From assembly GCA_963921825.1 (NCBI GenBank), contig OY997588.1, positions 64,624,617 to 64,688,616 on the forward strand: a DNA stretch of 64,000 nt, written 5' to 3'. Numbering within the stretch: position 1 is the first letter of the stretch; every line of letters starts with the position of its first letter. Under the pieces are notes generated by a model that saw only the letters and a list, made by a program, of their open reading frames with translations, did not search any database and had not been told where the DNA came from. A program made the position numbers and the translations under genes. Shown here in pieces: positions 10,823 through 64,000 of the stretch. The DNA comes from Erodium maritimum. Taxonomy: Eukaryota; Streptophyta; Magnoliopsida; Geraniales; Geraniaceae.

Positions 10823-12188
10823 AGAGAAAAAATCAAATATAAACCATTTCTTAACGTAAAAATTGTGTGAACCAATCCAAGCCATTCATTTTAAGAATGG
10901 ATGGATGAGATGCAATTGATTTGTTGACTGCAAAAAAACAGCACTTTTTAATAAGTGGTAAGGGCTTTTTAGTAAAACCATCATATTTTTTTACCAATTT
11001 ACTAATTTAATTTCTCCCGCTTCGTTTGAACTCCGATTGGCTTCAAACTTGCGCCATTGGTTGTGTTTTTTCAAGGGCTTTCTATCAAGACCAGTTATAA
11101 ATATATTTTGAAGCACGGAAAAAAATTATTTCGGGGCTGATTTTAAAAAAAAAAGTTAAGTCTGGGTAATTTTTATCAACATTATACACTGGGTTTATCA
11201 ACACTATACACTGGGTTTATCAACACTGAACACTAGTTTTATCACCTCATTTTTCAAAATCGAACATGATTTTATCACATCATCACATGTTTTTTTATGA
11301 ACACTAAGCACTAGTTTTATCAACACTAAACACTATGTTTATCATTAAATTACATGTGTTTTTATCATCTCATCACATTTTTTTATCAACACTAAACTCT
11401 AGGTTATCACCCTTATTTCGGGCTGATTTTAAAAAAAAGTTAAGTCTAGGTAATTTTTATCAACACTATACACTGGGTTTATCAACCATTACCCCTAGTT
11501 TTATCACCTCATTTTCCAAAACCGAACATGATCTTTATCACCTCATCACATGTTTTTTTATGAACACTAAGCACTAGTTTTATCAACACTAAACACTATG
11601 TTTATCATTAAATTACATGTTTTTTTATCATCCCATCACATGTTTTTTTTATCAACACTAAACTCTACTTTATCACCTTTATTTTTAATTGAAAATGATT
11701 TTTATCACCTCATTATCTGTTTTTATCACCCCAACACATGTTTTTTTATCAACATTTAGCACTAGTTTGATACCCCGATATAAAAAAATTTATTAGTGAA
11801 GATTTATCAACACTCAACATTGTTTTTATCACCCCAATATAACTTTTTTTATTTTTGTGCTTCAAAATATATTCATGACTGATCTTGATTTAAAGCCCTT
11901 GGAAAAAGAAAAATATTGGCGCTAGTTTGAAGCTAATCAGAGTTGAAACGAAGCGAGAATGATTAAATTAGTGAATTGTTGAACAAAAAAATGGACACTT
12001 GTCCACATGGCACCATGCTATTACAATTATACCCTTCACTGTGTGAGAAAGGAAGAAAGTTGTCTGGGGTTTGGTGGAATTGGGGTGATGATGTGGCATT
12101 ATGGTGAATGTTGAATCCAAAATGTGTGTGGATAGAATTGGTTCACACAGTTTTTAGGATAAGAGAAGTTTCTATTAGAATTCTCCTC
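10823..12188 (-). mobile_element. Non-autonomous MULE, TTTATCA-repeat family, copy 1
   Basis: Bounded by the 9-bp direct repeat tattcgaaa (10814-10822 and 12189-12197), the usual MULE target-duplication size. Both ends are inverted copies: the left end gagaaaaaatcaaat...aaccaatcc matches the reverse complement of the right end (gaggagaattct...gaaccaattc). Similarity continues for about 300 bases inward, for example the block around 11030-11110 against 11850-11970. The left end closely matches the inverted right end of the large MULE at 30861-40473, so the element is oriented opposite to that one as written. It has no coding capacity; the middle is repeat array. The insertion lies about 330 bases upstream of the GASA start codon, so it forms part of that gene's upstream region. 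Confidence 0.85.
11160..11860 (-). repeat. Nested TTTATCA array inside the MULE
   Basis: Some 25 or more TTTATCA motifs, mostly inside short repeats of the form tttatcaacactatacactg (about 22 bases). These are grouped in a higher-order unit of about 285 bases, whose start (gctgattttaaaaaaaagtt then aagtct) recurs near 11135 and 11418. The motif is TGATAAA on the opposite strand, the same word found throughout the introns of the 9.6-kb MULE. Confidence 0.85.
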
Positions 12189-30792: not shown

Positions 30793-32108
30793 TTATTGTA
30801 TTGTCTACGGATGAAAAAAGACCTTCTATTTTATCCATGTTTTTAAGATACCTTAAGTAAGAGACGAAATCGGCTGAAACCCACCGTTAACGTACAAACC
30901 AACGAACCAATCGCGTCCGTCCACCAGAAGCAGCCAACCGTCGAGATTGATCCTTCATCTCCGGCCAAGAGTGCGCGTTATATCTAGCTTCGGAGGGTAA
31001 TATTGTCAATTCCGCGCTTCTTCATTACACAGTCAGAACAACATCATAATCGCAGTCAACACAATTCCATGAAAATTCCCTTCTCTCTCAACGAAGCAAC
31101 TCGAAAACAGGTGATCATTCTCTCTTTCATTGATTCGATTATCATTGAATCAAATTTCATCAACAATTGTTAGAATCACTGGCTTCTCCAAAACCTGAAA
31201 AGCTTGCTCTGTTTTTGTTTCTCGACTGTAAATCGAAGATTGTAGCTGTTTTATCACCGGATCAAGCTCCAAAACAGGTTTTAATTACCTTTTGACTTGA
31301 TTAAATCGTCATGTAATCAATTGGAGGATCCAAAAATCAAAATATGTGTCGTTTTCAAAATTCTGAAAATCATGCTCTGTTTTAGGTTTTAGCGACTGAG
31401 CTGCTAAGGTTTATCAACTATTTCATGTGAATTCACCTATTTTCTTAGCTTATCAACATAAACAAGGCTATAAATTACCGATTTCGTTGTTTAAATATAA
31501 AATTAAAAATCTGGAATTCTTCTTCTTCGTTCATCATGAAGTTTCGCAGAATAGCTAATAAGATTCGTTGCCAGTTGATAAACATCTCGTTTTCTGTTGA
31601 TAACGCAACGGTTATGAGTTGATAACTTCTGTGACAGTTCACTGTTGAGTTGATGATTGCTCCAGGAACAGATCTTAGGTAGAGGAATACGTTGATAAAT
31701 GCACAATAGAAAGCTGATAAACACACGTTAAGGAGTTGATAAACGCCAATATATCTGATATTCATGTTCTTGGATAATCATTGCCGTTCAGAGATCATTG
31801 ATAAATAAATCGTTTCCACTGATAAGTTGTGATTTGTGCGTTGATAACTGTCTGATATCTTTTATCTGTATAAGTTGATAATCGATGCAGGCGCCACCGT
31901 ATACTATGATAGCATTGATAAACTGTTCGTTAGTCATTGATAAATTATTCATTGATAGATGAAAAATGTATGTGACATGTTCCCTGATTGAGTTATTAAT
32001 GGATGCACGCACAGATTGTAAATACCGAATCATTGATAAAAGTATATTTTCTAGTGATAAACACAAAGTTGTGAACTGATAATTTCTCTGTGTACATATG
32101 ATACAGTG

Positions 32109-34761
32109 ATGGAGAGCATAGATCATGATGATACAGAATTTGGGTTTGAATATGAAGATGAAGAGATTGTTTCAGAACCTATAAGCACACAGAAAGTGTG
32201 GATTCCTGACTGTGATGATGAGCTAAAGCCTCGAAAGGATATGAAATTTCATTCGTTGGAGGAAGGTATTATTTTCTACCAAACATATGCGTTAAACGGT
32301 GGTTTTGGGACACGTCGTGGCACAAAAAAGAAGAAACCAGGGGGTAATACAGTTGATTTTAAGTACATGTTATGTGCAAGAGAAGGGGAAACATTTGTAG
32401 ATGACATTGAAGAAGGTGGCAAGTCTAGAAAGAGATATAGGAAGTCTACACGAACACATTGTATGGCAAGGATGTATTTGAAGCACAATGGAAATGGTTA
32501 TATAGTGTATGAGTTCAGAGAAGAACACAACCACCGGTTACAGTGTAAGCGTGAATTGCACTATTTGAGATCGAATAGGCATTTAACACCAAGACACAAG
32601 CAGTTTATCATAGATTGCTCAAAGGTCAATTTGGGGGCTACAAAAGCGTTTAATCTTTACAGCCAAATAGTTGGGGGAGGGGGGGGGGGGGGCTGTCAAT
32701 GTATGAGCATGTCCAAATGATTTCAGGAACTTCCAAAGGGATCTGAAAGTGTACATTAGAGAGAGCGATGCACAGATCACCATTGACCAATTCCACACTA
32801 AGGAAGACTATTGTAGCGACTTCTTCTTTGAGTACAAAGTAGACGCTGGCGATCGACTAAGTCGCCTTTTCTGGGCTGATTCAACGTCGAGGAAGAATTA
32901 CGAGCTATTTGGAGATACAGTATCGTTCGATTCAACTTATCGATCAAACAGGCAAAATATTTTGTTACTGTATGGTAATTGTTCCTTGTTGGTTTGATAA
33001 ACCATTATGTTTTGATTGATAAACCTATTTGGGAGAATTGATAAAAACCTTGATTGCATATTTGATAAACAATACAGTCTATGTTGATAACTTATATATT
33101 CTTGTTGCTTGTGTTTTTGTTTGTATAGGTACATGATGGTCTTTGCACCATTCACTAGGGTTGACAACCATAACAAGTCAATCATCTTTGGTGATGCTTT
33201 ATTAGCCAAAGAGGATGCTGAATCTTTTATTTGGTTATTCCGGACATTCCTCAAAGCTATGAAGATGAAAGAACCAACCTGTTTTATAACAGACCAAGAC
33301 CCAGCAATGAGAAAAGCGTTTGAAGAAGTGTTCACCCAAAGTAGGCATCGTCTATGTATGTGGCACATAATGCAGAAGCTTCCTTCTAAAGTAAGTTGCG
33401 TTTTCAATTTGTATGGCTGATAAACTAAAGGGAATGGGATAAAGATTTGTTTGGTTGAGTGTGATAAAATGTGTTATTATTCTTGCAGGTGCCTCACACT
33501 ATATACCATGAGACGGATTTCAAGAAGAAATTTAAAGCATTGGTGTGGAGTAACTACACCGAAACAGATGAGTTTGAGCTGAGTTGGAAGTCTTTGATAG
33601 AAGAATTCCAACTAACTGATCACCCCTGGTTGTCTACTATGTTCGATATACGGGATCGGTGGATACCTGCATACTTCAGAGGTCTAAAAATGGGTCTATC
33701 ACTAACAGGTACCCTTTATATTAGTGGTGATAAATGCTTCATAACGAGATGATGATGTATCACTTTTGGCTTGATAAATATTTGTGTGGTTGTCATGAAC
33801 TTTGCTGATAAAATATATGACAGTTTATGATAAATATTTCACTAATAATTGATAATTGTATATTCTTAATAGCTGAAATATCTTGTTCAGGTGCCTTACA
33901 CTGGTTGAGTTCATGTGGCGCTTCGATACAGTCGTTGAAGGGCAGAGACAAAAACAATTACAGCTAGACTTCCAATCAAGCACATTAGCTCCTAATTTCA
34001 TTGCGTTGTCTGAAATTGAAAAGGATGCTTGGAGGATTTATAGCCGGACAATAGTTGACATCATAAAGAAAAGTGTTATGCGAACAACATTCAAGTGTGG
34101 GATCAATACATGTGCTGAAGAGGATGGAAAGAACATATACAAAATCACCAACAAACATGGGAAGAAAACATTTATTGTGGTGCAAAGTTTACCTGGGAAC
34201 CACTGCACATGTACTTGCATGAGATTTGAAGGATTTGGCATCCCTTGCATGCATATCTTTTTGGCTTTGCAAGCATCTATGGTTGATCAAATCCTGGAAA
34301 GCTTGATCACACAACGATGGACGAAGGATGTACGCAAGAATGCTGAAAATTCTACAACTTCTGCACATTCACAACCAACTGCCTACAGTGAGTGTAAGAA
34401 AATTATATCAGATAGATGCTCGATGCTTCACTCCTGTGTCCTTCATCCAACAATGAACGCTGTAAAGTTGAAGGAATTTGCAGAACAAGTAAAGGACTTC
34501 AAGAAGAGACTGAATGATGATGAAGCTGAGGACTTTGCATCAACCACAACACATGAACTTCAAACTTTGACAGGTCTTTATAAACCTTCCCAAGTTGTTG
34601 TCAAGCTACCGCATATATCAAGGACAAAAGGGTGTGGACAGAGAATGAAATCAGGGATGGAAATTTCTATCGAGGCAGCTAAGAAGAGGAAGCGAACTTG
34701 CAAGGGATGTGGTGAACCAGGTCATGACATCAGATGCTGCTCCCAGAATAAGAATGATTAA
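32109..34761 (+). CDS. FAR1/FRS-type MULE transposase, probably disabled
   Basis: The leader intron ends at 32106; ATG is at 32109. Domains in order: an acidic N-terminus; FAR1 DNA-binding domain (FHSLEEGIIFYQTYALNGGF to HNHRLQC); and the MULE DDE domain, with first Asp in FDSTYRSN, second Asp in ITDQDPAMRK and the MWHIMQKL block. SWIM zinc finger CTCMRFEGFGIPCMHIF follows, then a C-terminal zinc knuckle (CKGCGEPGHDIRCC). Exons end at 32951, 33390, 33708 and 34761. The first coding intron (32952-33128) uses a GC donor (ACAG then gcaaaa) and AG acceptor. Damage: a G-run at 32680-32692 region shifts the frame, and TGA follows at about 32703-32705. The conserved TSRSES segment normally found before exon 33891 is not visible, and the phase into that exon does not fit. 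It cuts and joins MULE ends in the nucleus when intact. Confidence 0.85.
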
Positions 34762-35305
34762 GTGATAATTCATTCAACAACTGTTGATAATACCTTTACA
34801 CAGACTTGATAATCTGGAATTCTTACTGCTATCTGTGAGATTCACAAAGTGTGAAACTCTACTCATATGATTAAAGATTGATAAACTCTTTCAATATAAA
34901 TGATAAACTCTTCTCAAGATGTTGATAAATGATATTTTTGTTTGTTTCTGAAATCTGAAAATTGAAGATGATTAATCTGTTCAAATGATTGATAATCCTT
35001 TGGTATATGTGTGATAAAACACCTCCACACACACTTAACTCAAATAATAAAAATGACCTCTTCATAACAAATGATAACACATGCATGGACAGTTGATAAC
35101 CAAATGCAATATAGTTGATAAACCTGTTAACATACCATTGCATTCCAGTCTAAAAGTGTGTTTACCACCTTCTAAAGTGATTAACAAAAGTCATAACAAA
35201 AGTATTTACATCCTCCTTCACAAAAACATCAGTTGTACCAACAGTAATTAACCCATACTTCAAAAAACATCAGTCATATTAAAAGTGTTTATCTAGAACC
35301 AAAGA

Positions 35306-38300
35306 CTAAATTGTTCTTTCTGAAGAACCAGACGACTGTTCATCCCCTCTATTTGCTTGCTTTCTCTCACAGTAACTCCTAAACTTTGTCATGTTCACTT
35401 CAATTGATGAGTTGCTTGGGTGCGTGCAAAACTTCATGACGTATCGATGCCTCAGATTTGATAGTTGATCAGCCTATATACACAACAACAACATAACCAA
35501 AAAATAGTTAAACACGCAGCAAGTACAGATGCTAAAAGACTGACACTCGAAAAGACAATCTTACATTGTTTTTTTAGCATAGGGTACCCCCTAGTACTGC
35601 CGGTTTCGCCCATATACCTCTCCATGTGGAACATGCAGTACACGCCACAGTCAGTCTTGTTATCATTGCTACTCCATCCTAGCTTCACACAAGTTGCAAC
35701 TGCGCTCTTCACCTTAACTGACAGTGTAGCATCAAACTTTTCCAAGAAGACAGAAAATCTATTCCTCTGCCAATGATGAAAAAATACACAGTTTATAAAC
35801 ACAACAAGGTGATTAATTTAATAACTAAATTACACATATAAACTTACCAAATTGGAGATTCTATTCCCATATTTGGCTCTAAAGTTAGACCCCACCAAAT
35901 TATCTAGGACATAAACAACATGTCTCTTCATATGGATGCACACCAAGTAATAATGATTAGATGCATGTATCGGGAAGAAAACCTATTGTTGTTAAAGGAA
36001 AAAAAAAATCAATGTCATTACACAAGCACACAACTAAAAGCATACATAGGGCCCATTTGAAGATATAATTATTACCATATCGATTGTAGCAATATTCACA
36101 CTAGGGTACATGCCCAACTCAAGTTCAAGTTGTTCAGCCAAATTTTCGCCCTTTGCTTCAATTAACCCAATCAAGTGATAAAAACAACACAAAATGATAA
36201 AAACATTCCAACATAACTATTATTAAGCAAACAAAAATTATATGAACAAAAAAACTTACACCCGCATATGGTGTGAAAAAAAACCTCGAAGGTTCATCTG
36301 TTGTTCTTTTCTCCTCCATTAAATTCATCAAGGCTGACCACGCATTAACAACCCCCAATTTTATTTGCTCCCCAACTCTCATAGACTGTAGATCCTTTTT
36401 CATCAACCCCATATCGCCATCTAAGGCTTCAAACAACATTTCCCTGCAAAAAAACACATGTGTATCTAGCTGTCAGTATTGATAAAAAGTCAAGCCAAAG
36501 TTGATAAATATAAATACAACAGATTGATAAAAAAATGTCATGATGGTTAATAAAAGAAAATAGAAAGGTTGATAAACCTATCTCAAAAGGATTGATAAAA
36601 CTATATCAGTGTGTTGATAAACCTAGATGACAGAGGTGATAAAAAGGAAACACATGTAAAGCATGGTTGATAAAATATGAACACTGAGCTGATAACCCTA
36701 CAAGACAGCATTGATAAACACTAAAGGCAGGGTTTATCTCTTTACCACTCATCTCCCCGCTCATCATTTAAGAGCCAATCCATCCACAATTTCTCTTCTT
36801 CTGTTAGTGGAGAATCCACATCTGTCATCCTGCTTACCAGGCTCCCTGATATAGGCATCTTCTTCGTACTTCCAGATGCTCTACCTTGTTGTTTGGCTTT
36901 GCTTTTCTTTGTGCTGACAGTATTTTCAGGTGCTGCCCTCCCCTCCTCAATTACCTGCCTTTTCTTAGCACTTACCAGTGTTCTCTCCTGTTTTTTCTCT
37001 TTGCCCTTGTCAGTTTGGACTTCTTCACATGTTGCCCTCCCTATGTCAGCGACATCACTAAGACCTAGGCTGAAAGTTGGCATGCCACGACCTTTTGGCT
37101 CTGCTTCTTCGACCACTACACCCACTTCCTCCACCCTCATATCAACATCACCTCCTCTACATTCAAAAACATTATCAGTTTCTATCTACCGTATCACTAT
37201 CTTTTCCTAACTCCACATCATCTTCTACATGTTCCTCTCTTGCCTCATTCCTTTCTCCCCCAACATTATCTCTCTCCCCTGCATCATCTTCACAACAGTT
37301 TTTCTTCCCACTACTTTGGCTATTGCCTTTAGTTGCAGCCTGCATTGTCGCTTCTAAAGCTTTCACCACATCTGGATGGTTCCAAAAACGGTCTTGTGAA
37401 GACTCTTCTATATCAGGTTCTATTTGGGCTCCCACCATTTCATTGACAGCATCCTCAAGTCTCCTGACGGTCATACTATCAGAAAAGTTCGAGCTTGCTG
37501 TTCTTAGGGTTTCCTTAAAAACCACATAGCACTCATCAAGCTTTAATGCTTGCTGCGCCAACTTAACAATGATTTCCTACATATTTTAAAATACAAAGAT
37601 GTCAACAAAAAAACAAAATTTATGCACCACAAAAAGACTATGTTGATTATACCTCTTGTCCAACTTCTTCAACAACTTCATTTGTTTCCTTTGGAATGTA
37701 CGGATCCTTCTCAATATAACCTTCCCCGAATGACCCATATTGCATTTCCAAATAATCCCTGTACTTCAGGTGCTCGCTTGTGCACCCTACAAAAGAAGGT
37801 TGGGCCCTCTCCACATTTCTTTTCTCTACAAAAGTACGGTCAACATAGTACAACTGCACAGCTCAAAAATATATGAAACATGTCACTACTTAAACTGATT
37901 AAACCATATACATGAGATGATGAAACAAATGTTTCAGAGTGATAAATACAAAACACATAAAAAGTGATAAAAACCATGTAATTGAGCTGATAAAAGAGAA
38001 ATGTTTCACAGAAAAAACAGATATAAACAGGGTGATAAAACATAAGACTGAACATGATAAAAAACAATATATCAGAGTGATAAAAACAAAAGTAGAAAAA
38101 TAGATGATCAGAAAATACGACTTACCATCAAAAACGTCATTGGCCCGGCGTAGAATTTATATCCAATGTCTGACTTCTCCAATTTCTTTTGGCTTGAAAT
38201 TAGACCATCGATGAAAAAAGAACACCAGTCATATTCTGCAATAGCATTTGGGTCATCGATCCCGTACAGAACAGAATGATTCACATATCGTCCAATTGTC

Positions 38301-39198
38301 CCTTCCACCATCAAAGTACAGAATAACACCAAAAAATTCCATTTAAACATATCCTCATCCCCAGTCTGTTCCTTCATTGCTTCGATCAGAAGAGAGATGG
38401 TCACTTCAAAAACTCCTTTGTCGGGAAACTGCTCCAACCAACGGGCCACACGCTCGCAATTTTCAGTCTTCTTGACAACAATTTCACGCCACCCAAAGGG
38501 GATCCCCAATGTCTCCCTAACATTAACTGCGCTAATGTGTAAAAGCCTGCCTTCCGAAAGCTTCAAACACCGACTGCCAATGTGAAAATTGCTTGCAAGA
38601 AAAAACCTCAGAGCTTGTGGTAATTCTTTCACTTGCAGTTGCAAAAGACTATCAAACCCCATGCCCACGACAGCCCTCCTCTGTCCATCACTCATTCCCT
38701 CGAAGAAATTAACGAGGGAATTTGGTGATGTCCTGATTTTTATCCTCCGAATACCATCCCCTCTTGGTGCCAAAACCTCTTTCTTCTTCTTCTTGGCAAG
38801 TGTGCCTGCAACATCATTTTCATTTGGTTGTCCCCTCTTCAAAGGGACTGCCGATACTTGAATTGATGAGGCCTCACCTCCATCATCTGCTAGGTTGGTA
38901 GGGGGTTCATTGGTAGGAGCTTCATTGGTAGGGGCTTCCTTGGTAGGAGCTTCTTTGGCAGGGGCTTCCTTTGGTGGATTACCAGGAGCTTGGCTTAAAG
39001 AACTTTCTCGTACAACCTTGGCAGGGTAGGGGGGACTTTAATCCTGATCACAACCTGTTTTTTTCCTTTCACTGTACACCAAAACATTAAGGAAATATAA
39101 ATAAAATAGGATAAAAACACGATTTAACGTACTGAAAACCTACCTGGTATCATATCTTTTAGAAGCATTGAATCAACAGACCCTCGAGTATTCACCAT
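35306..39198 (-). CDS. ULP1-like cysteine protease (C48) carried by the MULE
   Basis: ATG at 39198 (MVNTRGSVDSMLLKDMIPG), first donor at 39143. A large exon to 38126 encodes (EAPTK/N)n repeats, a KKKKK patch and the plant ULP-associated helical domain (GMSDGQRRAVVGMGFDSLLQ, LGIPFGW). Middle exons (37860-36740) are Lys/Glu-rich. The C-terminal exons hold the peptidase: SNHYYLVCIHMKRH (His) and VYVLDNLVG (Asp) at 35990-35850, NKTDCGVYCMFHMERYMG (Cys) at 35768-35578, with the end SSGSSERTI at 35306. The His-Asp-Cys triad is complete. A one-base shift near the C-run at about 39030 puts the first exon out of frame with the rest, unless a different start or splice is used. ULP1 enzymes process or remove SUMO; the role in transposons is unknown. 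Introns contain TGATAA motifs. Confidence 0.8.
38896..38975 (-). repeat. 15-bp coding repeat (EAPTK/N) in ULP1 gene
   Basis: Five or so imperfect 15-base units give EAPAK-EAPTK-EAPTN-EAPTN-EPPTN in the linker before the helical domain, a likely flexible, fast-evolving segment. Confidence 0.8.
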
Positions 39199-40483
39199 TT
39201 TCTGAAACACAAATACAAAATATACAGTGTTGATACACATGAGTTGATAAATCTACATCAACTGAATGATAAATGTCAACAAAAATGTTGATAAAACCAC
39301 AGATGACAAACCACACACATTTGCACAGTGTGTAAGCATTCAAAAATCTAATGTGAGTGATAAACAACATCATATAGTTGATAAAAAAAACAGTTAATGA
39401 TTATCAAAACACATGTCACAACACACATTGTAATCATTAAAACATATCAAATGAGTTGATAAACCTACCTCATGAAGGTGATAAATGTAAGCACAAGTGT
39501 TGATAAACACAGATCAAAAACCACACAGCACATTAAAACCAGATGACAGTTAAGACTTGCCAACTTCACTTCAAAACATCCAGTTAATGAACAAAGCAAC
39601 GCGTTACAACGCTTGAAAAACTGAAATCAAAACTTCGAAACCAGTATATGAACATAAAATAACATCACCATTCAAAATCAACACATGCACTTCAAAATGA
39701 GCAAAAATAAGATCGCACAAGCTACAACCGATTTACAAACAAACTGAAATAAGTTCATTCCTACGAAAATCAGGCATAAAAACACTCCAAACAACCAAAA
39801 TCAACTATCCAACGCATAAAATAAACCAAAATCGATACACATATACCTCAGATGAACACATGCACATCATATGGACACATGCAGTTGCTTCAAAGAATTT
39901 CATACAACTGAAATACGCTCATTCCTCACAAAATCGCACAGAAAATCACTTCGAAGCACCAAAATAAACTTATCGAACGCATCAAATAGGTCAAAATCGA
40001 GTAAATCTCAAACTAAAATCCATAAATCAGAAAAAATGATCAACAATGAAATAACCAACACAAAAGAGAGAATCGAAACCAAACCTAGATGTGTAGCGTC
40101 GAACCGAACTGGAAGCAAGAAATTTGGCTTCAAACAACATGATTCTTCGACCAAAATCGCAAAAAAAAGCACGAAGGAGACGAGTGTGAGCGTAGAGAGA
40201 GGTCGTGCGTGAGTGAGAAGTTTCTGAGTGTGAGAAACTGGAAAATCGCTTAGATTTCGGATGCACGAAAAGAGATATGTTGAGTTACAAGAATACCCTT
40301 ACCAACCAGCGTTATTGCAAAATTGCCACCGAATTTGCTGTTTTTTTTTCAACATTTCAGTCAACAGGTCAACACCACAACTATGCATCTCAACCATCTA
40401 TTTTATAAATGGATGGCTAGGATTGATTCTCTAGTTTTTAGGTTAAGCAATGGTTTGTATTTGATTTCTTCTCCCTTAAGTAA

Positions 40484-60880: not shown

Positions 60881-61567
60881 GGGAAAACTCTGGGTCCTAA
60901 CCTTCTTGAACGTTTCGTTTTGACGTCCTAACCCAGACCAACGTTTCGTTACAGTTCCATATGCGAAAGATTGGAACTTTAACAAAACCTGATATGAACC
61001 GTTCAAATTAACGATTTCGTTAACATAGGAAGTGAAAAGTCGAAACTACAATTCCTTCACGTTAACCTTTCAGCTCCTCTTTCCCAAAATAGTGCATTAT
61101 TTTGAAATTCAGTGTTGAAAAATTGTTGGATATGTATACTAAGTGTTCTAATTGCATGTTTAACGGGCATGGGGAGCTGAAAGGTTAACGTGAATGGAGT
61201 TGTAGTTTCGACTTTTCACTCCGAAATCGTTAATTTGAACGGTTCATATCAAGTTTTGTAAAAGTTCCAACATTTCATGTATGTTAAACATGCAGTTAGA
61301 ACACATAGTATACATATCCAACAATTTTTCAACACTGAATTTCAAAATAATGCATTATTTTGGGAAAGAGGAGCTGAAAGGTTAACGTGAATGGAATTGT
61401 AGTTTCGACTTTTCACTTCATATGTTAACGAAATCGTTAATTTGAACGGTTCATATCAAGTTTTGTAAAAGTTCCAACCTTTCGTGTATGGAACTGTAAC
61501 GAAGCGTTGGTCTGGGTTAGGACGTCAAAACGAAACGCTCAAGAAGGTTAGGAACCAGAGTCATCCC
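60881..61567. mobile_element. Fold-back Mutator-like MITE, 687 bp
   Basis: Flanked by the perfect 9-bp direct repeat taaaaataa (60872-60880 and 61568-61576). The left arm (gggaaaactctgggtcctaa, caacgtttcg, ttaacgatttcgttaac) is an inverted copy of the right arm, with over 200 bases of complementarity. A roughly 110-base unit (gagctgaaaggttaacgtga ... gtaaaagttccaac) is present inverted on the left and twice in direct order on the right (61171-61270, 61370-61480). It has no coding capacity. 9-bp duplications and long TIRs point to MULE-class mobilisation. Its ends do not match the TGATAA family. Confidence 0.85.
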
Positions 61568-61576
61568 TAAAAATAA

Positions 61577-62519: not shown

Positions 62520-64000
62520 AGAGGAAAAATCAAATGGAAACCACCCCTTAACGTAAAAACTGTGTGAACCAATCCAAGCCATTCATTTTAAGAATGGATG
62601 GATGAGATGCAATTGATTTGTTGACTTGTTGACTGCAAAAAAACATCACTTTTTAGTAAGGGGTAAGGGCTTTTTAGTAAAACCATCATAATTTTTTTTT
62701 TACCAATTCACTAATTTAATTTTTCCCGCTTCGTTTGAACTCTGATTGGCTTCAAACTTGCGCCATTATTTTTGTTTTTTCAAGGGCTTTCTATCAAGAT
62801 CAGTCATGAATATATTTTGAAGCATGAAAAAAAAATATTTTCGGGGTTGATTTTTTAAAAAAAAGTTAAGTCTGGGTAATTTTTATCAACACTATACACT
62901 GGGTTTATCAACACTATACACTGGATTTATCAACACTATACACAGGATTTATCACCTCATTTTCCAGAATCGAACATGATTTTTATCACATCATCACATG
63001 TTTTTTTATGAACACTAAGCACTAGTTTTATCAACACTAAACACTATGTTTATCATTCAATTACATGTGTTTTTATCATCCCATCACATGCTTTTTTATC
63101 AACACTAAACTCTAGGTTATCACCCTTATTTCGGGGCTGATTTTAGAAAGAGTTAAGTCTGGGTAATTTTTATCAACACTATACACTGGGTTTATCAACA
63201 CTATACACTAGATTTATCAACACTATACACTGGATTTATCACCTCATTTTCCAAAATCGAACATGATTTTTATCACATCATCACATGTTTTTTTAAGAAC
63301 ACTAAGCACTAGTTTTATCAACACTAAACACTATGTTTATCATTAAATTACATGTGTTTTATCATCCCATCACATGTTTTTTTTATCAACACTAAACTCT
63401 AGGTTATCACCCTTATTTCGGGGATTATTTTTAAAAAAAGTTAAGTCTGTGTAATTTTTATCAACACTATACACTAGGTTTATCAACACTATACACTAGG
63501 TTTATCAACACTATACACTAGGTTTATCAACACTAAATACCAGTTTTATCACTTCATTTTCCAAAATCGAACATGATTTTTATCACATCATACACTAAGT
63601 TTATCAAAAAGTTAAGTCTGGGTAATTTTTATCAACATTATACACTGGGTTTATCAACACTGAACACTAGTTTTATCACCTCATTTTTCAAAATCGAACA
63701 TGATTTTTATCACATCATCACATGTTTTTTTTATGAACACTAAGCACTAGTTTTATCAACACTAAACACTATGTTTATCATTAAATTACATGTGTTTTTA
63801 TCATCCCATCACATGTTTTTTTTTATCAACACTAAACTCTACGTCATCCCCCTTATTTTGGTGCTGATTTAAAAAAAAAAAAGTTAAGTCTGTGTAATTT
63901 TTATCAACACTATACACTGGGTTTATCAACATTATACATTGGGTTTATCAACACTATACACTGGGTTTATCATCACTGAACACTAGTTTTATCACCTCAT
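62520..64000 (-). mobile_element. Non-autonomous MULE, TTTATCA-repeat family, copy 2 (runs off window)
   Basis: The left end gaggaaaaatcaaatggaaac and the following 300 bases are nearly identical to the left end of the element at 10823, for example gtgtgaaccaatccaagcca and atggatggatgagatgcaat. The likely left target copy is tagttgtta (62511-62519). The right end lies outside the window. No coding capacity is seen. Confidence 0.85.
62870..64000 (-). repeat. Nested TTTATCA array, copy 2
   Basis: More than 40 TTTATCA motifs in short tttatcaacactatacactg units. They are grouped in a higher-order repeat of about 285-290 bases whose header (gctgatttt...aaagttaagtctg) recurs near 62849, 63132, 63420 and 63858, with a partial one near 63605. 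It is longer than the array at 11160-11860, so unit number varies between copies. Confidence 0.9.

Follow-up and report, generated by a model that had tools for sequence, protein, structure and literature searches.

To our knowledge, the sequence-specific removal of silencing by a transposon-coded protein is known in detail only from the VANDAL elements of Arabidopsis. VANDALs carry a MuDR-type transposase (VANA), and their VANC proteins carry the domain DUF1985 (and DUF287). In the work of Sasaki et al. 2022 (EMBO J), specificity is reportedly set by motif sequence, density and helical periodicity, and the helically periodic targets are said to be present in non-autonomous VANDALs as well, which matter to the system. 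The present analysis concerns a 64,000-nucleotide stretch of DNA (the window) from a host that is evidently a plant, given its transposon content, and a Mutator-like element within it (30861-40473), whose non-coding DNA is filled with the word TGATAA in one orientation. Genome-wide counts and copy searches cover the 763-Mb host genome. The closest precedent is VANC21, which binds YAGTATTAY in non-coding regions, where this motif occurs in the same orientation, at high density and often in tandem repeats, and the expression of which lowers methylation along the whole element (PMC5735166). VANC proteins have variable regions with tandem peptide repeats, and their targets change fast between related families (PMC5735166); some VANC genes carry Ulp1 domains (PMC13317346), and VANDALs have degenerate ends (PMC10398659).

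The element contains two convergent genes, a transposase gene on the forward strand and a ULP1-type gene on the reverse strand, both of which are broken in the window copy. The gene model was built from reading frames and splice sites, without transcripts, and by this model the exons comprise 5,008 bp of coding and leave 4,605 bp of non-coding DNA.

30861-40473, forward strand: whole Mutator-like element, 9,613 bp, GAG...CTC ends, boundaries common to its copies
30851-30860, no strand: left target-site duplication, 10 bp (ccttaagtaa), identical to 40474-40483
40474-40483, no strand: right target-site duplication, 10 bp, flanking the main element
32109-34761, forward strand: transposase gene with FAR1, MULE and SWIM domains, four coding exons, broken in the window copy
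32109-32951, 33129-33390, 33489-33708 and 33891-34761, forward strand: the transposase exons
35306-39198, reverse strand: ULP1-type gene (gene model), nine exons, conserved N-terminal domain and C48 protease domain
31576-32082, forward strand: TGATAA array in the transposase leader, 15 copies
32995-33090, forward strand: TGATAA array in transposase intron 1, five copies
33418-33467, forward strand: TGATAA in transposase intron 2, two copies
33728-33855, forward strand: TGATAA array in transposase intron 3, five copies
34763-35121, forward strand: TGATAA array in the intergenic spacer, 11 copies
36176-36200, forward strand: TGATAA in ULP1 intron 5, two copies
36480-36717, forward strand: TGATAA array in ULP1 intron 4, 10 copies
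37940-38083, forward strand: TGATAA array in ULP1 intron 2, six copies
39245-39506, forward strand: TGATAA array upstream of the ULP1-type gene, eight forward copies and one reverse copy

Mutator-like elements are expected to make target-site duplications of about 9 bp (range 8-11). The duplications here are 10 bp, perfect in seven of the eight copies having both ends seen and with one mismatch in the eighth. The terminal inverted repeats are short and degenerate; compared by eye, the left end reads GAGACGAAATC...AAACC...TTAAC and the inverted right end GAGAAGAAATC...AAACC...TTAAC. Separate transposase reading frames matched FAR1 (2.3e-14), MULE (PF10551, 2.6e-22) and SWIM (3.7e-5) in Pfam, which identifies a Mutator-like element (MULE) of the FAR1/Jittery type, an assignment made from the domain architecture. 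Of ten reading frames compared with Pfam, none matched MuDR, the type of VANA, at E <= 0.1.

A preliminary description, which placed the pattern at 31405-39515, had reported some 60-65 TGATAA words, nearly all in one orientation and nearly absent from exons. This is borne out by the counts. There are 64 forward and eight reverse copies in the element, and 64 and six within 31405-39515, where 1,000 dinucleotide shuffles gave means of 4.9 (forward) and 4.3 (reverse) and a maximum of 13 on each strand. All 64 forward copies lie in the 4,605 bp of non-coding DNA and none in the 5,008 bp of coding DNA (Fisher p = 4e-21); of the reverse copies, three of eight are inside exons. From base composition, about 1.1 copies would be expected in the exons and 2.7 in the non-coding DNA, and with so low an expectation for exons the signal is one of non-coding enrichment and not of exon depletion. 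The eight copies of the element with both ends carry 64-69 TGATAA each. The span itself holds as an observation, although the element is larger, and the non-coding placement also holds, but not the claim that every non-coding segment is filled: nine of 14 contain the motif, ULP1 introns 1, 3, 6, 7 and 8 (each <100 bp) do not, and forward copies are missing from the outermost 715 bp on the left and 967 bp on the right of the element.

Since the motif reads in the sense direction in one gene but in antisense in the other, and is also found throughout leader and spacer, an RNA splicing signal is rejected, and the DNA-level role that had been proposed is supported by an orientation that stays the same on the DNA through both genes. 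A microsatellite is rejected too, as head-to-tail TGATAATGATAATGATAA occurs 12 times genome-wide, versus 35 for the reversed control.

The spacing of the motif, which the preliminary description had missed, is regular. Gaps between consecutive forward copies are 22 bp in 29 of 63 cases and 21-23 bp in 36 of 63. At longer range, 108 gaps of 25-100 bp from seven sequences taken together show a period of 11.2-11.3 bp, about one turn of DNA, the strength of which was matched by 0 of 5,000 jittered sets. Of 56 such gaps away from multiples of 22, 40 are no more than about 3 bp from 33, 55 or 77, zones that account for 43 % of the positions available. Genome-wide, 40,940 pairs of TGATAA stand 22 bp apart, versus 1,486 for the reversed control, and pairs at 11 bp (340 observed, 256 control), 17 bp (383, 262) and 29 bp (601, 459) are near background. 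The sites are therefore helically periodic, as VANC targets are said to be, and because the one-turn spacing is unused, the stretch occupied by a single bound unit is probably longer than 11 bp and no longer than about 22 bp.

Comparison between copies demonstrates that the six bases are selectively conserved. Between the window copy and a copy 90 % identical to it (C2a), 10 of 378 motif bases have changed, versus 49 of 465 bases in permuted hexamers and 304 of 2,598 other non-coding bases; the proportion of differing sites rises from 2.6 % in the motif to 8.9 % in coding DNA and 12 % in other non-coding DNA. With C2a as the reference, the figures are nine of 366, 63 of 545 and 305 of 2,610, and across 15 other aligned sequences 40 of 4,054, 234 of 4,905 and 1,754 of 27,774. 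Over six comparisons, 75-92 % of TGATAA words were intact as a whole, versus 51-76 % of permuted words, of which a few (at most two of eight) equalled TGATAA. At the six motif positions, 0.6-3.4 % of bases have changed, whereas the base immediately preceding the word has changed in 15.6 % of cases and the one following it in 8.2 %; the protected footprint is exactly six bases. That only these six are conserved, and that non-autonomous elements keep the arrays, also supports a role at the level of DNA.

The arrays are shared by relatives of the element. On the transposase-sense and other strands, TGATAA occurs 97 and 3 times in L039, 61 and 3 times in L040, and 60 and 10 times in L041, with no sense-strand copy in the matched coding DNA (3,040, 2,839 and 3,031 bp); ULP1 exons U1, U2, U4 and U6 of these relatives were unmatched and were counted as non-coding. 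In amino-acid identity to the window copy, their transposase exon 2 stands at 90-94 % and their ULP1 exons at 52-76 %. The window copy and these three relatives thus have the dense, same-orientation, non-coding motif by which VANDAL/VANC systems are recognised. A 6-kb part of another relative, L045, has 28 and 4 copies.

Other sequences have no arrays (strands as fetched): L042 (7 and 6 copies) and L044 (3 and 3), with N-terminal domains 36-38 % identical, L043 (10 and 1), a ULP1-like stretch without transposase matches, and L055 (0 and 1), a short stretch of 2.3 kb upstream of a DUF1985 domain. A switch of motif in L043 to GTCCAC at 30-32 bp was considered and dropped, since the word belongs for the most part to a minisatellite with a unit of about 32 bp that is confined to the neighbourhood of the ULP1-like stretch. 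In L044, which holds a distant ULP1-type gene, there is a one-strand telomere-like array at 1746-2578, with CCCTAAA and CCCTGAA variants and a higher-order period of about 330 bp (CCCTAA 43 times in the whole locus, 0 on the other strand); possibly this is another motif array. L055 (1-2301) has a repeated palindrome-like AACGACGTCGTTTTGG and related CGTTTTG words upstream of the DUF1985 domain, with no regular spacing visible. DUF1985 domains are hugely amplified in the host genome (150 of 150 scored were over the cut-off, these being the best 150 of 841 candidates), and several are within 10 kb of MULE domains.

In addition, two non-autonomous elements in the window carry arrays.

10824-12188, reverse strand: non-autonomous element of 1,365 bp, one terminus in common with the main element; 10-bp duplication tattcgaaaa/tattcgaaag, one mismatch
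62521-64000, reverse strand: second such element, running past the window end, so that its full content is unseen and may hold more

The arrays are at 11173-11831 in the first (24 TGATAA on the reverse strand, 0 on the forward) and from 62883 to the window end in the second (40 and 0), and are organised at a higher level in units of about 284-288 bp. Open frames are short in both elements, and neither has a tblastn match to nine of the 13 main-element exons, the query set excluding U1, U2, U4 and U6. A terminal stretch of about 91-120 bp is common to them and to the right end of the main element, with 78-82 % identity and oriented alike with respect to the motif; beyond this terminus only short matches in the array regions link them to that element. 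The longest alignment between the two shows 0 changes in 114 motif bases, versus 52 in 745 others, and pooled overlapping alignments show 23 in 783, versus 405 in 3,108. Because these dependants have retained both arrays and a terminus, the reader probably works in trans, to the benefit of the element. Roughly the first 100 of the listed 22-bp pairs come from some eight arrays, plus a few isolated pairs, within 5 Mb, and most of the listed pairs are of the spacer type of the non-autonomous arrays. Scaled genome-wide at about 12 pairs per array, this rough estimate suggests in the order of 3,000 arrays.

The arrays therefore appear to form, within the non-coding sequence of a FAR1-type Mutator-like family and its dependants, a selected, directional and helically phased candidate platform for binding. 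The fixed orientation, two-turn spacing and six-base footprint suggest a protein that would bind side by side along one face of the DNA. This protein would be made by the element, the most likely candidate being the ULP1-type protein, which has a conserved domain at its N-terminus. By analogy with Arabidopsis VANC, binding may remove or block silencing marks along the element, upon which the transposase would be expressed and the ends would become accessible; more speculatively, the SUMO-protease domain may strip SUMO from local chromatin silencers. The ULP1-type protein is favoured because of the VANC21 precedent and the existence of Ulp1-bearing VANC genes, and on this analogy we lean towards it as the reader of the arrays, with anti-silencing as the effect.

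In the window copy, the reading frame of the ULP1-type gene is broken in places, and exon 6 is not preceded by an AG acceptor. The joined exons 5-8 of the gene match Peptidase_C48 (PF02902, 2.9e-9), the Ulp1 domain of the KIU subgroup, and the best solved relative is SENP7 (5.1e-5). The N-terminal domain has a predicted fold with a mean pLDDT of 72. Between subfamilies, dN/dS is 0.05-0.37 in both genes where computable, so that selection must have maintained both during this divergence. The ULP1 protein has tandem peptide repeats close to its start, which differ among the subfamilies of the window, L039 and L040.

38895-38984, reverse strand: coding minisatellite with a 15-bp unit, encoding the tandem peptide repeats near the ULP1 protein start

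Several results weigh against the ULP1-type protein as a VANC-like reader. DUF1985 had no Pfam match in the window, L039, L041 or L042 proteins, and profile-profile comparison of the N-terminal domain with eight DUF1985 domains of the same genome was not significant (probability 0.2 %), so that DUF1985 membership is not supported. L044, the 36 % relative, gave weak PMD (0.033) and DUF1985 (0.091) values, both below the cut-off. The N-terminal fold model had no match in the PDB at E <= 0.001. TGATAA is kept in all four relatives with a matched transposase (L039, L040, L041 and partial L045), and so the motif does not differ between the subfamilies seen, as VANC targets do. Between close copies, some exons have dN/dS near or above neutral (up to 1.2), as is expected of decaying copies. 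Lastly, the FAR1 domain of the transposase is the better conserved between subfamilies (75-78 % identity versus 61-66 % for the ULP1 N-terminus) and could equally read a constant motif.

The strongest alternative is that the transposase reads the arrays through its FAR1 zinc finger, either for promoter activation and desilencing, like TnpA and MURA, or for assembly of a transposition complex. FAR1 is a DNA-binding domain, its greater conservation is what one would predict if it read an unchanging motif, and the retention of arrays together with a terminus by the non-autonomous elements would fit a transposase as well. The TnpA sites of En/Spm are subterminal. Both TnpA and MURA of MuDR are element-encoded proteins tied to element demethylation (PMC10398659), a precedent that likewise weighs against a ULP1-type reader; however, MURA acts on terminal inverted repeats (PMC10398659), whereas the array here is absent from the ends, where a transposase must act, and lies in introns, leader, spacer and upstream of the ULP1-type gene. 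A FAR1-MULE relative (L054, exons at 39-55 % identity) also has no array, with 0 and 1 motifs on the two strands as fetched, although it is a short stretch of 2.5 kb with little non-coding DNA. On balance a transposase reader is unlikely, while still deserving serious consideration. The FAR1 domain had no convincing solved relative in a sequence search (best E 1.1). Compared with copy C6a, the transposase gene of the window copy has a frameshift at a poly-G run near 32680 and has lost a segment near 33699; its intron 1 begins (32952) with GC, where that of C6a begins with GT.

A host transcription factor, of the GATA type or another, could instead bind the arrays and bring about expression or open chromatin. 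TGATAA contains a GATA core, the GATA-factor consensus being WGATAR with variants interchangeable on either strand. The arrays do not behave in this way: in seven array-bearing sequences, TGATAA occurs 410 times forward and 30 times reverse, but AGATAA 18 and 24 times and TGATAG 11 and 6 times, and AGATAA pairs at 22 bp are at background genome-wide (352, control 390). The generic host GATA-factor site put forward in the preliminary description is thus not supported. The orientation is strict, and we know of no reason why a host factor would need 60-97 phased sites per element, which makes this explanation improbable. Control of nucleosomes or replication by DNA shape alone, without a specific reader, would account for a period near the helical repeat, but dinucleotide phasing requires neither a single orientation nor a single word, and here a six-base word with sharp edges is conserved as a unit; there is very little likelihood of this. 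Neutral tandem repeats spread by slippage and purged from exons, akin to the spreading repeat under coding constraint suggested at first, can hardly be the explanation, for although the unit of about 284-288 bp attests that duplication does occur, slippage or conversion would homogenise whole 22-bp units, leaving the protection of just six of 22 positions unexplained, and the motif bases diverge less than coding bases.

Among described systems, VANDAL21/VANC21 and VANDAL6/VANC6 of Arabidopsis are the nearest, being likewise Mutator-like with degenerate ends (PMC10398659). As here, they have a dense, same-orientation short motif in introns, intergenic and terminal non-coding regions, often in tandem, and a second gene that is less conserved than the transposase and has variable tandem peptide repeats; their motif is also found in an unrelated element, AT9TSD1, which resembles the sharing of the motif here (PMC5735166). 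The claim that no plant transposon had been described with such a pattern is therefore contradicted by the VANC21-bound motif of VANDAL21 (PMC5735166). The differences are that the motifs there are YAGTATTAY or AGTTGTCC/AGTTGTAC and not TGATAA, and that here there are a FAR1-type transposase, two genes, no detected DUF1985, no forward motif near the ends, and a motif constant across the subfamilies seen. The KIU/Kaonashi elements of Arabidopsis, melon, rice and grapevine are also Mutator-like with a C48/Ulp1 gene (PMC13317346, PMC2528002), but those of Arabidopsis are non-TIR VANDAL-type (TIR, terminal inverted repeat) with three genes, and TGATAA arrays are not mentioned in the passages available. 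Jittery-like/FAR1-type MULEs and FHY3/FAR1 genes have the same FAR1 (WRKY-GCM1), MULE and SWIM domains (PMC2528002); no phased motif array is described for these MULEs in the passages of that paper, and the 2.5-kb relative has none. Searches of open-licence papers, mostly by title or passage, found no description of TGATAA arrays in transposons; in one paper that mentions TGATAA together with a transposon, the word is a target-site duplication. The system may be VANC-like in its working, and is not classed as a VANDAL because its transposase is of a different type.

Two further repeats were seen. A foldback-like inverted repeat at about 60890-61570 of the window, with cgttttgacgtcctaaccc and its complement about 600 bp apart, is probably a separate small element. 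At C2:12083217-12109885 of the host genome, a TGATAAATGTCTGATAA stretch occurs seven times at exact 4,442-bp steps, in a long tandem repeat. With 31405-39515 as the query, the genome yielded at least 49 matching stretches (among the best 30 of 443 candidates scored).

It is possible, and proposed only tentatively, that a FAR1-type lineage acquired or independently evolved sequence-specific anti-silencing, with a reader that has no recognisable DUF1985 and is fused to a SUMO protease, and with a fixed, helically phased TGATAA code, and that an estimated few thousand elements genome-wide, many of them non-autonomous, captured the code and depend on it. The arrays would then be a clean test case, with a six-base word at every second helical turn and naturally occurring site pairs in the tens of thousands in one genome, and if the proposal is true, a sequence-programmable demethylation tool could follow. 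This would be a second system, with another transposase lineage, another reader domain and a very simple, rigid code, and would show the strategy to be general. It would also help to explain the continued mobility of large families of non-coding elements.

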